Source: Phycisphaerae bacterium
GTDB taxonomy: Bacteria; Planctomycetota; Phycisphaerae; SM23-33
Assembly: GCA_016782885.1 (NCBI GenBank)
Contig: JADHXQ010000008.1
Span: 1-64,000, forward strand
Length of the DNA stretch: 64,000 nt
Direction of reading: 5' to 3'
The position numbers were made by a program, and so were the translations under genes. Below the pieces are notes generated by a model, which was not told the origin of the DNA, ran no database searches, and saw only the letters and a list, made by a program, of their open reading frames with translations. This document shows, one piece after another, positions 1-64,000 of the stretch. How positions within the stretch are numbered: position 1 is the first letter of the stretch; each line of letters starts with the position of its first letter.

Positions 1-448
1 CTGGTTCTGCGACCGCTTGGGCGGCGTCTTCAAGACCCCCATCAACAAGCTGCTGTTTTACGCCGATTTCCTGAACTTCAAGACAGCCACCGTTTCACTA
101 ACTGGAGTGGCGTACAGAAAGGCTCCCCTGGGCCTGGTGCCTACTGACTATGGCAAGTTGCTTGGCTGGATGGAGGATGATGGGATCCTGGTTTGTCAGG
201 AGGTAGAGTTCCCAAACGGGGGTATGGGTTATCGCTATGCTTCGGGCCCACAAGCCGATTTGGTGAAGACGGCTTTTTCCGAGCATGAGGAAAAGGTGCT
301 GGAATGTGTGGCCGACGAACTTGGAAAGCTGACGGCAAAAGCGATCTCCGAGAGATCGCATCAAGAGTCCGCATGGAAGGACGCCAAAGACGGGCAAGTT
401 GTCTCATATCAGGTGGCGCAAGAACTGTCGCTTTCGTTACCGCAGTAA
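1..448 (+). CDS. Panacea/SocA-like antitoxin domain protein, 3' part
   Basis: The reading frame is open from base 2 and has no start codon in the window, so the 5' end lies outside; the TTG at 17 in the ORF track is internal. The visible part begins WFCDRLGGVFKTP and continues with the K-x-x-x-N-K-L-L-F-Y-A-D-F signature of the Panacea (DUF4065, SocA-like) domain. In this family the domain is an antitoxin module, often fused to an N-terminal zinc-finger/HTH region. The last ~60 residues are charged and have no motif I recognise. The toxin partner is normally the adjacent gene; nothing downstream on this strand looks like one, so it would have to lie upstream. The family call is good; antitoxin function is inferred. 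Confidence 0.75.
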   Translation, partial: WFCDRLGGVFKTPINKLLFYADFLNFKTATVSLTGVAYRKAPLGLVPTDYGKLLGWMEDDGILVCQEVEFPNGGMGYRYASGPQADLVKTAFSEHEEKVLECVADELGKLTAKAISERSHQESAWKDAKDGQVVSYQVAQELSLSLPQ

Positions 449-478: not shown

Positions 479-642
479 ATGATGCTTGCCCGGTATCACC
501 CCTTAGAATATCGATTTAGGATTGTCGGACAGATCACGCTGCGCGAGACAGTTGAAATGATAGAGGATAGCTATCAGTCCTCAGCTACACACTTGGCTCA
601 ATGTGAAGGCAGTCTGTCCCGTTTTTGAATTCCCTGCGCAGG

Positions 643-696
643 ATGAAGTGGAATGCTGCGTATCCGTTTGCAGGAAACCCTGCCTTGAAGGGATGA
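643..696 (+). CDS. 17-codon leader ORF upstream of PEP-CTERM gene (leader copy 1)
   Basis: ATG at 643 opens a 17-codon frame (MKWNAAYPFAGNPALKG) closed by TGA at 694-696, four nt before the ATG at 701. Its last codons, AAG-GGA-TGA, are also the Shine-Dalgarno of the PEP-CTERM gene, so its translation would end on that ribosome site. The same arrangement, with the same 17-codon length and a Leu-Lys-Gly ending, occurs upstream of the genes starting at 59600 and 60014 on the minus strand. Similarity extends upstream to a T-run around 622-626. The conservation is what supports it; there is no obvious ribosome site for the ATG itself. It could instead be an untranslated RNA element or a regulatory DNA repeat. 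Confidence 0.4.
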   Translation: MKWNAAYPFAGNPALKG

Positions 697-700
697 CAAG

Positions 701-1291
701 ATGAACAATGTAATTCGGATGATATGTCTGGCGGGGTTGGCGGTGATGGTTGGTGCGGGGCAGGTATGGGGCGGTATCATCCTCCAGGACGAGGGGAGCA
801 GTTATTCTCAGATTCTGGCCGCCCAAGCGGCCGGTCAAACCTTCACGGCGGAAGACGCCGGTATCTCGTCGATCGGATTTGATCTGGCCGTCATGAACAG
901 CGGGCACCCCAACGCCCCTATCTCTGTCTCACTCTACACGGGAGTTGGAAACGGAGGGTCGCTTCTTCATACGGCAACAGGCACACTGGAACCGGGATAT
1001 GAGGGCTTCTTCGATTTCGACTTCACGATGGTGACGTTGGTTCCGGGTAACGTCTACTCGGCGATGGTTGGAACAACCAGCGCCCGGTGGGCAGTTGCTT
1101 ATAGTCAGCATTCCTTCCCTTCCGGCGCCCCTATTTCCTCCAGGACTGATTACGTTGGTGGTGATGCAATTCTATACGGGAATGTCCGTACCATAGATGA
1201 CCTTAACTTTCGGGTCATCCCCGAACCCGCCACGTTATCGCTCCTGGCCCTTGGCGGCCTGGCCGTATTGTGCAGACGCCGGAAGCTGTAG
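701..1291 (+). CDS. PEP-CTERM sorting domain protein
   Basis: This is a 196-aa secreted protein. Residues 1-25 are a signal peptide (MNN-V-I-R-M then a hydrophobic run ending GQVWG). The C-terminus has the full PEP-CTERM signal: IPEPAT, a hydrophobic segment (LSLLALGGLAVL), then a CRRRKL basic tail. That signal is recognised by exosortase (EpsH-type) in the envelope; no exosortase gene is in the window. The middle is a beta-rich region (QTFTAEDAGISSIGFDLAV), resembling the extracellular beta-sandwich domains common in these proteins; no enzyme motif is seen. The ATG follows AAGGGA with 7-nt spacing. It is preceded by leader copy 1. Probable exopolysaccharide-associated or surface protein. Confidence 0.85.
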   Translation: MNNVIRMICLAGLAVMVGAGQVWGGIILQDEGSSYSQILAAQAAGQTFTAEDAGISSIGFDLAVMNSGHPNAPISVSLYTGVGNGGSLLHTATGTLEPGYEGFFDFDFTMVTLVPGNVYSAMVGTTSARWAVAYSQHSFPSGAPISSRTDYVGGDAILYGNVRTIDDLNFRVIPEPATLSLLALGGLAVLCRRRKL

Positions 1292-58865: not shown

Positions 58866-59600
58866 CTACCTCCGGCGTCTGCGAAGAGCGGCCAGACCGC
58901 CAAGGGCCAGCAGGCTCATCGTCGCCGGTTCGGGTATAACTTCTACGTTCGTCTCGAATGCGTCAAATCCGATGAAGGTTGGCTCGTCACCGACCCATGC
59001 TCCCCATGATTCAATATTGTAAGAGCCGGGATCTCCAGAGTTGACGGGCATGTACATGACCTTTCCGCTCACATTGATCCGGGACAATACATCCCGCTTC
59101 GTATCCCAATCCGACCTCAGGTCAAACGGAATGGTCTGCGTGTCCCATGATTCGCCGGCCGGGAGCGTGAAGCTTATTCCAAACAGATGACCGGCATCGC
59201 TATATGCATTGATTCCGAAACTTCCCTCCCAGTCGTAAAGGTATTCTGTGTCTGTTTCCGCATCGTATCCCCAGCGCTGCCCGGTCTGATACCGGTAAGC
59301 CGTTGTCACTTCAACATTGAGAATTCTGCCCGTAAAAGCCGACATGTCCACGTCCTGGTTGAAACTGACTCCATTGTTTGCGCTGCGAGAGGCCTGGCTG
59401 AAGAAATAGTGATCCCCTTCGTACGCCGCACTCGGGTCCTGGACTGCAATGAAGCGGTTGTCGTAAGTGTCCCAGCCTGTCAAATCGCCGGTTTCCGCCC
59501 CGGGATTCGTCATGGGGACGGATGTCCACCCAGCCGACGCGGCCGAACCCAAAACTGCAACAATTGCCGCCACACATACGATCTCAAATGTTTTCTTCAT
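58866..59600 (-). CDS. PEP-CTERM sorting domain protein
   Basis: This 244-aa secreted protein has a signal peptide to ~23 (ending ASA). Its beta-sandwich body opens with MTNPGAETGDLTGWDTYD, the usual start of PEP-CTERM choice-of-anchor or CBM-like domains, followed by Trp/Tyr-rich strands. The C-terminal signal is IPEPATMSLLALGGLAALRRRRR. The ATG follows AAAGGATGA, which also ends leader copy 2. It lies 96 nt after the STAS gene on the same strand and ends at a strong hairpin. Probably exported to the surface through an exosortase encoded elsewhere. Confidence 0.88.
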   Translation of the reverse strand: MKKTFEIVCVAAIVAVLGSAASAGWTSVPMTNPGAETGDLTGWDTYDNRFIAVQDPSAAYEGDHYFFSQASRSANNGVSFNQDVDMSAFTGRILNVEVTTAYRYQTGQRWGYDAETDTEYLYDWEGSFGINAYSDAGHLFGISFTLPAGESWDTQTIPFDLRSDWDTKRDVLSRINVSGKVMYMPVNSGDPGSYNIESWGAWVGDEPTFIGFDAFETNVEVIPEPATMSLLALGGLAALRRRRR

Positions 59601-59604
59601 CGTC

Positions 59605-59658
59605 TCATCCTTTCAAAGTCAGGTTTCGTTCAGCGAGATTTCCGATAACTCGCTCCAT
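59605..59658 (-). CDS. 17-codon leader ORF upstream of PEP-CTERM gene (leader copy 2)
   Basis: ATG at 59658 opens a frame MERVIGNLAERNLTLKG closed by TGA (59605-59607), four nt before the ATG of the PEP-CTERM gene. It has the same length, Leu-Lys-Gly-stop ending, overlap with the Shine-Dalgarno (AAAGGATGA) and 4-nt spacing as copy 1 at 643-696. Upstream in frame, VFAYLSN parallels FFAHLRK of copy 3. A small hairpin (CGA-GTTA-TCG) sits at the same place as GCGG-GTTA-CCGC in copy 3. Confidence 0.4.
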   Translation of the reverse strand: MERVIGNLAERNLTLKG

Positions 59659-59696
59659 GTTGGATAAATACGCAAAAACCGTATACAAAGCACTAT

Positions 59697-60014
59697 TCAG
59701 AGTGTCTGGGCCTGCCGGTTACCGCCGCGGCGATACCGCGGCAGGAAGGTTTCCATCCTGTTGAACTCGTAGAGGTCTTCGGCCTGCCCCGCCAGACCGT
59801 CTATCTGCATATCGCGGCCGGAATTGCTCAAACTTCTCCGCAGGACGATCAATCGGGCCAGGGCGGGGGTCGTTGTCCCGACAACGCGCAAGAGATTGAT
59901 GCGGACCGAACCAATACCACTGAGAGTTGCCGCCTCCCTGGCGATTTCGCATGCCCCTTCGTATGACAGGTAGTCGTAATCGCAGGTGATCAATGATGTT
60001 TCGCTTGCTACCAT
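59697..60014 (-). CDS. STAS-domain-like protein
   Basis: This 105-aa protein has the length and pattern of a STAS domain (anti-sigma-factor antagonist type): an early strand (SLITCDYDYLSYEGA), a central strand (SVRINLLRVVG), a helix ALARLIVLRRSLSNSGRDMQIDGLAGQ, then the final helix DLYEFNRMETFLP. STAS proteins of this kind bind anti-sigma factors or act in signalling. A phosphorylatable Ser is not obvious. No anti-sigma kinase is in the window. AAAGGA lies 7 nt before the ATG, within leader copy 3. It is downstream of the ECF sigma gene on the same strand. Confidence 0.6.
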   Translation of the reverse strand: MVASETSLITCDYDYLSYEGACEIAREAATLSGIGSVRINLLRVVGTTTPALARLIVLRRSLSNSGRDMQIDGLAGQAEDLYEFNRMETFLPRYRRGGNRQAQTL

Positions 60015-60021
60015 GTTTCTG

Positions 60022-60072
60022 TCCTTTCAAAACAGGGTCTTCTACAAGCGAATATGCGGTAACCCGCCCCAT
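60022..60072 (-). promoter_or_regulatory. Leader copy 3 upstream of STAS gene; frame without the terminal stop
   Basis: ATG at 60072 opens MGRVTAYSLVEDPVLKG, the third copy of the 17-codon leader. Codon 18, TGA in the other copies, is CAG here (60019-60021), so the frame reads on past the STAS start in another frame (134-aa track ORF). Position relative to the STAS ATG (4 nt after codon 18) is unchanged. A TTGCGCA/TGCGCAA hairpin lies directly upstream of the ATG. The loss of the stop argues either that the peptide is not the point and the nucleotide sequence is, or that this copy has decayed. Confidence 0.4.
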
Positions 60073-60163
60073 CTTGCGCAGGTGCGCAAAAAAACTTGGA
60101 TAAAGGACGCTGAATGGCGCCACCCCTGGCGCACTTATCGTGGAAATGGGCGGAAAGCGCCTA

Positions 60164-60673: not shown

Positions 60674-61447
60674 TCACGATCTTGCGCCACTGCCGCCCAG
60701 AATCCTCATCAATTCCGCAATTTCAAGATCCACTTCCTCATCGCTGTCCACAAATCGCCGGACGTTCCGCCTGAGAATCGTCTGGAAGGTCCGCTTTACC
60801 GTGACGATCATGTTCGAGGCCGTGGACTCAGAGGCCACTCCCAACTCCGCACACAATTCACCCAGCGATCTGGGCGTAGTATTGTCCATAATCGGCGCCA
60901 AAACGCGCATGCGGAACATCTCCCAGTGGACCGCCCGCCCGCCGTCGCGACAATGCTGCTCGACTTCCCCCAGCACCTCGCCCAGCAGCGCCAACGCCCA
61001 CTCGTGATCGAACGATTCGCCAGGCGTCCGCCCGTCGGATTGCAGTGAAGCCCGCATCGGATCGATCTCATCGAGCGGCGCCACTCCGCCGGCGGGACAG
61101 CGCTTCCGGGCTGATGCTTTTCGATGAACGCCCGCCACATAATTCTCCAGTGAGGTCACTATGAACGAGCGGAATCGCCCTTTGGTCTGGTCGGCCCGGT
61201 CGATGAGCTGCCTCCCGAGGACGACTTCCAGGAAGAACCCCTGGGTCAGGTCCTTTGCCTCCTGGTCGCCGCGTCCTTTGCGGCGGAGATAGCAATAGAC
61301 CGGGCGCCAGTACCGCCCGAGCAATTTCCCCGTAAGCATCCGCCTGCGTTCCTCGTCGCCGGCCTGCACGCCGAATACAACGCTCCACTGCGTAGTGCAG
61401 AACCGCGAAGGACCCTCTCCCATATTTGTCCTGCCGCCTGATGGCAT
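60674..61447 (-). CDS. ECF-type RNA polymerase sigma factor
   Basis: This 257-aa protein fits the sigma-70 ECF class seen in planctomycetes. Region 2 contains LLGRYWRPVYCYLRRKGRGDQEAKDLTQGFFLEVVL, with the core-binding D-L-T-Q-G-F pattern. Region 4 is the later HTH (SLGELCAELGVASESTASNMIVTVKRTF). The C-terminal tail is acidic (VDSDEEVDLEIAELM). The ATG has TTGACA about 30 nt upstream (61477-61482, minus strand) without a good -10. Its downstream neighbours are a hypothetical protein and the leader-bearing STAS and PEP-CTERM genes, which are plausible targets. Confidence 0.82.
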   Translation of the reverse strand: MPSGGRTNMGEGPSRFCTTQWSVVFGVQAGDEERRRMLTGKLLGRYWRPVYCYLRRKGRGDQEAKDLTQGFFLEVVLGRQLIDRADQTKGRFRSFIVTSLENYVAGVHRKASARKRCPAGGVAPLDEIDPMRASLQSDGRTPGESFDHEWALALLGEVLGEVEQHCRDGGRAVHWEMFRMRVLAPIMDNTTPRSLGELCAELGVASESTASNMIVTVKRTFQTILRRNVRRFVDSDEEVDLEIAELMRILGGSGARS

Positions 61448-61526: not shown

Positions 61527-64000
61527 TCACCGCCCGGACGGTTTTGTGGTCGCGGGCTTTGTTGTCGGACGTGCTATCGGCTTGGCTCCTGGGGCGGCGG
61601 ACACCTTGGCGGGGTCGTTTTTCCATCCGTATTTCGTTGCGAACTGAGACGGTGTGAGCATCTCCTGGCCGGCGCCGGTTACTACGACGTACAGCAGTTC
61701 TTTCTCCACGTCGACACCTTCTGAGACTGCGTAATGCCCGTCGGCGCTGATCGCCATACATCCGGTCGCGGGCAGCGGCATGTAAGTTCTCATCGGAAGA
61801 CCCTCGGCGACATCCCAGATACGCAGCATCCTGTCGCAATGAGTCGCCAGCATTGATCCGTCAATCGAGAACGATACCGGCCGTACGTGCGTCGGATGAC
61901 CAAAGAGTGTTCTGAGCCCGGACGATGGGGTATCCCACAGGTGGATGTAGCCTGTGCCCAGGGTGAAAGCAGATCCACCACCGCCACGTCTATCCCCCGC
62001 GGCCAGGAGGGCTCCATCGCGGGAAAGCACTGCAGAAGGATTGCCATTGATAAAGCTGATGGGGATATTGCGAGTCATCGCTCCTGATTCGATATCCCAC
62101 AGTTCGGCGTTATCCCCTCGATTGCTCAAGACAGCAAGCACCTTGCCATCACCGGAACATGCGAAACCGGAGATGCCTTTTTCAGACGATGCTAACTCCT
62201 TGATGAGGCTACCCGATCGAGCGTCCCATATTCCCATGATGCTTTTGGGATCTTTCTTCATCAGCGAGATAATCCTGCGGCTGTCGGGCATCCATATCCC
62301 CGGCATATGTTGGTCAGGCGGACCCCCTTGTCCTGGAATGCCGGCAACTGCCTGCCCGGTCTCGGCGTCCCATACGAGTAGAGAACCGTGCATGTTCCTC
62401 ACGCACACCAGCCGCCCGTCAGGCGATAAGGAAAGGCTGATTGCTCCTTCATCTTTCTTGCCATTGGGATAAGATTTCCAATCGCGCAGCGAACGGGTAT
62501 CAAGAATGTGGAGCATCGGTTCGCTTCCCCACATAGCGGTATCGGCGAACGCAAGCAACTTCCCGTCAGGACTGTACGCCGCGCATAGGACCGTTTTTCG
62601 TCCGGGCTTGAATTCGCGGGAAAACTGAGGCGCCTCGCTGTGCCACAACCACATCGTCCCTGCTTTTTCGACCCTGCATCCAACAAGTGTGGCGCCCTTC
62701 ATTTCCGGCGATGCAGCGCCTTGGGAAAGATAAGGTATTGGCTGGCTGATTTCCCAGATCGTCCGACCGGTCGCAGAGTCAATGAGTCCAACACCCACGT
62801 TCGAGTTCTTCCTGTTGCCCATTAGACCGCACCATCGCACAGCCAACGCCTTACCGTCCGGTGACCATATGTAAACATCGTTTTGGTCTTTGTAGGTCAG
62901 CCCGGGCTTGCCTACCGCCTTCCAGGTTTCAGTATCCAGAATGGTCGCCACTTTGTCTTTGTCGCGGAAGAGCAAACGCATTCCGTCCGGCGACCAGGCA
63001 AGCAACGCCTTAGTATAAATGTCGCTGCAGCAATCGATCTTGCGAATCATCTCCCATGATTCGGTGTTCAATATGGCGATAGCCGCCGCCGGGTTTTTTC
63101 CACCAGCCTCACCTCGGACAGCAAACATCTTTCCATCAGGCGACCAGGCAACAAGTTTTCTGTTGTCGCCCAGACGAGTCTCGAAGGACTTGAGGGTCTG
63201 ACCCGAATGGATATTCCAAACGTAAGCGTTGTAACTTCCTCGCCTCCCCGCCGTGGCGAGCATTTTCCCATCGGGCGACCATTTCAGCAATCCAGCACCA
63301 TTGTCACGATAGATAAGAAACCGGATGAATCGCCCGGATCGGACATCCCAGAGACCCACGCTGCGACCGGCCGTTGCAAGAGTCTTGCCGTCCGGCGAGA
63401 ACGCCACTCCCATGACGGGTACTTCATGCCCGACAAGCGTGTGCAGGCGACGCCCCGATGAGAAATCCCAGATAATAGACGTCCCGTCCTTGCTTGCCGA
63501 TGCCAGGAGACGGCTGTCCTTGGAAAATGACAGGTCGAACACCGTCCCGCGATGACCCACGAACATCCTGTCGAGCTTGCCCGTAGCAGCATCAAGTATC
63601 CGTATGGTTCCGGCCTCGCCGGTAGTGGCGATCCATCGCCCGTCCGGGCTGAACGCCATCGCCGTCTGCCTGCCGCGAAGTCGGCGGGTTTCCAGCGCCC
63701 AGAACTTAACGCCCTCGATCTTCGCCGGCCGGGGCGCCAGTGCGGTGAGATTCTCGCCGACATCCCAAGGCTCAAGCGGAACGCCGAGAGGCAGGCGAAC
63801 CTGAAGATCCGAGACTGTATAGCAGGAATCCTCGGTTGCAAGCGCTATGCGTCCCGGCACAATCCCCACCTTCTGCCAGTCATCGGGCGCGCGCAGCCTC
63901 CATTGCGGAGCGGAGAAGTTCAGGATCCTCTCCCCATCGAGATCAACCCTTACCCCCACCTGCCCGCGGCGGGTCCGAATAGACACGTCCAGCAGATATT
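61527..64000 (-). CDS. WD40-repeat protein, 5' end outside the window
   Basis: The frame stays open to the window edge (codons before the track's GTG 63986 read YLLD in frame), so the gene is 5' truncated here; at least 824 residues are visible. The first ~100 form a beta-sandwich-like part (GVRVDLDGERILNF). After that come many WD40 repeats: FSPDGRWIATTGEAGTIRILDAATGK, HRGTVFDLSFSKDSRLLASASKDG and WSPDGKMLATAGRRG, with the last near the C-terminus. In planctomycetes such proteins often follow Ser/Thr kinase domains or ECF sigma factors; a kinase domain would lie outside the window. It is 79 nt upstream of the sigma factor gene. Confidence 0.82.
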   Translation of the reverse strand, partial: YLLDVSIRTRRGQVGVRVDLDGERILNFSAPQWRLRAPDDWQKVGIVPGRIALATEDSCYTVSDLQVRLPLGVPLEPWDVGENLTALAPRPAKIEGVKFWALETRRLRGRQTAMAFSPDGRWIATTGEAGTIRILDAATGKLDRMFVGHRGTVFDLSFSKDSRLLASASKDGTSIIWDFSSGRRLHTLVGHEVPVMGVAFSPDGKTLATAGRSVGLWDVRSGRFIRFLIYRDNGAGLLKWSPDGKMLATAGRRGSYNAYVWNIHSGQTLKSFETRLGDNRKLVAWSPDGKMFAVRGEAGGKNPAAAIAILNTESWEMIRKIDCCSDIYTKALLAWSPDGMRLLFRDKDKVATILDTETWKAVGKPGLTYKDQNDVYIWSPDGKALAVRWCGLMGNRKNSNVGVGLIDSATGRTIWEISQPIPYLSQGAASPEMKGATLVGCRVEKAGTMWLWHSEAPQFSREFKPGRKTVLCAAYSPDGKLLAFADTAMWGSEPMLHILDTRSLRDWKSYPNGKKDEGAISLSLSPDGRLVCVRNMHGSLLVWDAETGQAVAGIPGQGGPPDQHMPGIWMPDSRRIISLMKKDPKSIMGIWDARSGSLIKELASSEKGISGFACSGDGKVLAVLSNRGDNAELWDIESGAMTRNIPISFINGNPSAVLSRDGALLAAGDRRGGGGSAFTLGTGYIHLWDTPSSGLRTLFGHPTHVRPVSFSIDGSMLATHCDRMLRIWDVAEGLPMRTYMPLPATGCMAISADGHYAVSEGVDVEKELLYVVVTGAGQEMLTPSQFATKYGWKNDPAKVSAAPGAKPIARPTTKPATTKPSGR

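Follow-up and report, generated by a model that had tools for sequence, protein, structure and literature searches.

The window, the whole stretch of 64,000 nucleotides that was analysed, contains three genes that are each preceded by a leader of approximately 80 nt. Two of the genes code for PEP-CTERM proteins and one for a STAS-like protein. Leader positions were obtained by sequence comparison and profile searches, and the Shine-Dalgarno sites were read from the sequence:

58866..59600, minus strand: PEP-CTERM protein, 244 aa, signal-peptide coding region in common with the copy 3 gene
59601..59683, minus strand: leader copy 1, 3' of the STAS-like gene and 5' of the first PEP-CTERM gene
59608..59614, minus strand: Shine-Dalgarno GAAAGGA of copy 1
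59697..60014, minus strand: STAS-like protein, 105 aa
60015..60097, minus strand: leader copy 2, 5' of the STAS-like gene
60022..60028, minus strand: Shine-Dalgarno GAAAGGA of copy 2
618..700, plus strand: leader copy 3, 5' of the second PEP-CTERM gene
687..693, plus strand: Shine-Dalgarno GAAGGGA of copy 3
701..1291, plus strand: PEP-CTERM protein, 196 aa, signal-peptide coding region in common with the copy 1 gene

An earlier note on this DNA had described the leader as common to the three genes, and every part that it named was present at its place. When the copies were compared without gaps from the start codon over 80 nt, the number of identities was 47, 43 and 51 for copies 1 and 2, 1 and 3, and 2 and 3, respectively. 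The background was 7,875 pairs drawn from 126 upstream regions anchored at the start codon, those of the PEP-CTERM genes of the genome and of window ORFs that have a ribosome site. We chose these starts ourselves, with start codons picked by a simple rule, and the pairs gave a mean of 21.3 identities per 80 nt (standard deviation 4.15). Unrelated background pairs reached at most 35 of 80; just four pairs were higher (49–74), which we attributed to tandem paralogs of this genome. When the last 20 nt containing the ribosome site were dropped, the copies still had 36, 29 and 39 of 60 identities, respectively, compared to a background mean of 15.5. These identities, far above the control pairs, therefore show that the leaders are truly homologous even without their last 20 nt, and that they are a non-chance element immediately 5' of start codons. 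The greatest similarity was between copies 2 and 3, even though copy 2 is a neighbor of copy 1. Transitions were the majority of the differences between copies 1 and 3 only narrowly (20 transitions, 17 transversions), less than the earlier wording implied, and dominated clearly between copies 2 and 3 (21 and 8, respectively).

The ribosome-site end carries no such information. The 18-nt identical stretch ending GAAAGGACAGAAACATG was also found elsewhere in the genome, at two genes that are unrelated; because it occurs there exactly, GAAAGGACAGAAACATG is a common ribosome-site form in this genome and alone no sign of kinship. These two sites (G000:C133:8577-8594 and G000:C115:42856-42873, loci L032 and L033) have an 18-nt ribosome-site context identical to copy 2, and the two genes resemble each other further upstream too. 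Likewise, the Leu-Lys-Gly that had been pointed out in the leaders is not a feature in its own right: TTG AAA/AAG GGA is the Shine-Dalgarno sequence, which also stands at unrelated genes. Apart from matches to the ribosome site, a BLAST-type search with copy 2 gave just a few short ones that looked like chance.

A sequence-only profile of the three copies found just these three in the 4.95-Mb genome. Among 198 genomes searched with stricter filters there was one clear outside match, a full leader copy in the genome of a sister species of the same genus (G002; copy 4), and a second profile that included it found four full copies (copy 4 at E=5.7e-17) and one partial copy in 38 genomes, the rest being noise. 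The partial copy (G002:C12:690-727) had a weak score (E about 0.1) and was accepted on three grounds: its position directly at a start codon, upstream sequence in common with copy 4, and a signal-peptide start in common with copies 1 and 3. From its sequence it appears to be this leader after loss of an internal segment. Both G002 copies stand directly 5' of PEP-CTERM genes. No copy was found in G001, the other genome of the genus. The leader is thus known from two species only and, of three genomes in the genus, two have it. The genomes analysed are metagenome-derived and incomplete (90.9% for the window's own genome), so that further copies may be missing. Model matches in distant genomes (approximately 12–18 bits, inspected in part) were rejected as chance matches that lie inside genes or cover the ribosome site only. 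The expectation of further copies before PEP-CTERM genes was therefore borne out in G002, but that of a family-wide enrichment was not (four full copies and one deleted remnant in 38 genomes). No earlier description of the leader was found in the sources searched, in agreement with the note.

The genes below the leaders had been considered unrelated at their starts. This was true for the genes below copies 1 and 2 and copies 2 and 3 (15/75 identities each), but not for those below copies 1 and 3, where positions +1 to +75 had 39/75 identities and encode similar signal peptides. The signal-peptide coding start of the G002 partial-copy gene matched the copy 1 and copy 3 genes at 53/75 and 44/75 positions, respectively. 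The remaining parts of these three PEP-CTERM proteins differ by eye. Copies 1 and 3 thus align upstream from the start codon and also into the coding sequence, with 54% identity in the leader and 52% in the adjoining coding sequence, and therefore no special constraint is visible on the leader. Other PEP-CTERM genes of the genome likewise have upstream and signal-peptide sequence in common, as duplication predicts. In the STAS-like gene the likeness is confined to the leader, stops at the start codon and excludes the coding sequence. The STAS label itself is plausible but weak: a Pfam scan of the protein gave no match, and a homolog in another genus (40% identical) matched STAS_2 at E=8e-4, which does not reach the curated cut-off. 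The protein is apparently intracellular. In G023, G008 and G025, the sequence upstream of its homologs resembled the leader in the ribosome site only. The SocA/Panacea-domain protein (E=1e-14) at 17-448 (plus strand) lies upstream of the copy 3 PEP-CTERM gene.

The upstream ATG of the leader is kept in all four full copies and opens the following frames in the window, all of which were judged not to be translated:

59605..59658, minus strand: 17-codon frame and TGA, copy 1
59719..60072, minus strand: 117-codon frame from the upstream ATG of copy 2, which overlaps the STAS-like gene
643..696, plus strand: 17-codon frame and TGA, copy 3

In copies 1 and 3 the TGA lies four bases ahead of the main ATG, an arrangement that would suit translational coupling, in which the 17-codon frame is translated and ribosomes re-initiate at the main start four bases on. 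The frame is broken, however, in two of the four full copies: it closes after 10 codons in copy 4, and in copy 2 it continues over the STAS-like gene in the wrong frame. No Shine-Dalgarno sequence was present ahead of the upstream ATG in any copy (copy 4 as read from the alignment), substitutions per codon position among the three window copies (6/9/3, 8/7/7 and 7/5/4) gave no third-position excess, and the Leu-Lys-Gly at its end follows from the Shine-Dalgarno sequence. Coupling, as the earlier note had proposed, is accordingly very improbable, and in the best reading the upstream ATG frame is incidental.

A conserved fold was the other role that had been proposed for the leader, which would then be a cis-regulatory structured RNA (riboswitch-like or protein-binding) of a small regulon. 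The consensus structure of the four copies had 89% standard pairs and three pairs changed on both sides, its small hairpin would cover the Shine-Dalgarno site, and copy 3 folded better than shuffled sequences (z=-2.43). In contrast, the other copies folded no better than chance (z=0.14, -1.04 and +1.25), the minimum-energy folds differed, the covariation score was reached by 29 of 500 shuffles (with four sequences, which give little power), and no relevant Rfam 15 match was obtained at E≤1. With such weak pair statistics a conserved structure is not supported, and a regulatory RNA of this kind appears improbable. With so few sequences, a weak hairpin at the ribosome site may nevertheless exist.

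The leader might instead be a shared promoter region through which the three genes are co-regulated, e.g., under the control of the sigma-factor-like product of the gene at 60674-61447, in a circuit that includes the STAS-like protein. The presence of the leader at the STAS-like gene with no accompanying coding sequence, the T-run that opens all three window copies and the adjoining ECF-like sigma gene are in line with such an arrangement. The T-run, however, is lost in copy 4, the invariant columns of the leader are scattered rather than grouped in -35/-10 blocks, and neither conserved promoter-like hexamers nor a sigma-70-like or consensus promoter was detected in the leaders. We consider a shared promoter unlikely. 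The gene at 60674-61447 (minus strand) codes for a divergent ECF-type sigma factor (Sigma70_r2 at E=7e-4, below the cut-off). Its neighbors are the STAS-like gene and the gene for a WD40-repeat protein (61530-63986).

A shared leader and signal-peptide start, differing protein bodies and equal divergence fit a 5' module that moves from one PEP-CTERM gene to another. We therefore favor, with a probability of approximately 0.7, the explanation that all three leaders derive, as paralogous copies, from a single 5' module with a plain UTR and ribosome-binding role, in which the upstream frame is incidental and no conserved fold is supported. The module would consist of approximately 60 nt of untranslated leader and a strong Shine-Dalgarno sequence and would probably have been copied between genes inside this genus. 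In the PEP-CTERM genes it would be carried together with the signal-peptide coding start; in the STAS-like gene just the part up to the start codon would have come along. Its role would most likely be that of a simple 5' UTR and ribosome-binding region, and its T-rich start may mark a promoter or the transcript start. Against this stand two observations, namely that copies 2 and 3 are the closest pair though copies 1 and 2 adjoin, and that the copy 2 gene product is not secreted; simple gene duplication is therefore insufficient. The leader alone would have moved onto an unrelated gene, which could mean that it carries regulation itself.

Upstream of both G002 leader copies, an unrelated conserved stretch of approximately 100 nt, here called E1, was found, with the leader sitting between E1 and the start codon. 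Examples, all outside the window, are:

L074:9808-9909
L075:512-620
L149:1501-1626 (G000)
L128:1501-1601

With a covariance model built on 12 seed sequences that we selected, E1 was found in 19 of 38 genomes at E≤0.1, with 24 copies in G002, 14 in G001 and 4 in the window's genome. At E≤1e-4 it was present in 20 of 198 genomes of the class, all of them from the window's own family or order. No E1 was found in the window, even with filters off around the three leaders. An alignment of the sequence upstream of copy 3 with a possible E1 remnant was marginal, its score equalling the best of 300 shuffles, and was not taken as evidence. E1 is predicted to consist of a 5' hairpin with a GGGA loop, a covarying middle hairpin and a GGCC/GGCC hairpin. 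In 71 distinct sequences there were 92.4% standard pairs and ten pairs changed on both sides, and the covariation score was reached by 0 of 500 shuffles, a comparison favored by the model-fitted alignment and made on related sequences. Constrained folding gave a mean z of -2.0 over 65 sequences. The GGGA loop is able to pair with a 3' UUCCC, and the predicted structure is likely a pseudoknot.

An ORF with a ribosome site was found within approximately 30–380 nt downstream of 58 of 64 E1 copies, and the spacer 3' of E1 varies among genes. A PEP-CTERM end was recognized in 38 of the 43 complete ORFs by a pattern of our choosing and in three more by eye, so that at least 41 of the 43 complete ORFs that follow E1 are PEP-CTERM genes. 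The enrichment before PEP-CTERM genes of relatives that had been predicted for the window leader was thus observed with E1, an element distinct from it. When 19 E1 loci were scanned against Rfam 15, no relevant match was obtained, and no E1-like element was described in the open-licence literature searched; E1 is apparently undescribed and is a more interesting discovery than the leader. Between E1 and the leader in G002:C71 and G002:C12 (L074 and L075) lies a second hairpin-like stretch with the loop YGAGCC. This stretch, GCAGRC-YGAGCC-RYYTGC, follows some E1 copies, occurs also at L099 and L102, and its stem changes are apparently compensating.

From the G002 arrangement, the leaders in the window may have descended from such a UTR and now be without E1; equally, E1 may have been gained in G002. 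It is conceivable, though we hold it tentatively and as rather unlikely, that the window leaders are the ribosome-site-proximal ends of UTRs whose upstream half in the sister species is E1, an undescribed pseudoknot-like RNA controlling many PEP-CTERM genes order-wide, and that, as derivatives without E1, they could keep part of the regulation. Haft et al. (2006) noted that further PEP-CTERM regulators and DNA motifs, within and outside Proteobacteria, are still to be found (PMC1569441). This question would become testable with a covarying RNA that precedes PEP-CTERM genes, up to dozens of them in one genome.

The proposed 5' module can be compared with three known systems. Like the window leaders, the proteobacterial motif of Haft et al. 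(2006) is a conserved sequence 5' of PEP-CTERM genes. It is a sigma-54 promoter with GG/GC spacing (a -24/-12 site) plus a PrsR site, reported in Proteobacteria only (PMC1569441). In contrast, the window leaders include a non-PEP-CTERM gene, and a -24 GG/-12 GC site was considered and none was seen in them by eye. With leader peptides and translational coupling the window leaders have in common a short frame that ends just before the start codon in two copies, but here the frame is not conserved and is not preceded by a ribosome site. The leader is a warning that a short upstream frame ending in a Shine-Dalgarno sequence should not readily be taken for a peptide. Paralogous 5' regions of tandem-duplicated genes, of which this genome has further PEP-CTERM examples, likewise share the sequence upstream and the start of the signal peptide; in the window, by contrast, the protein bodies differ and one copy stands before an unrelated gene. 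The leader would in this respect exemplify the movement of 5' modules from one PEP-CTERM surface-protein gene to another.
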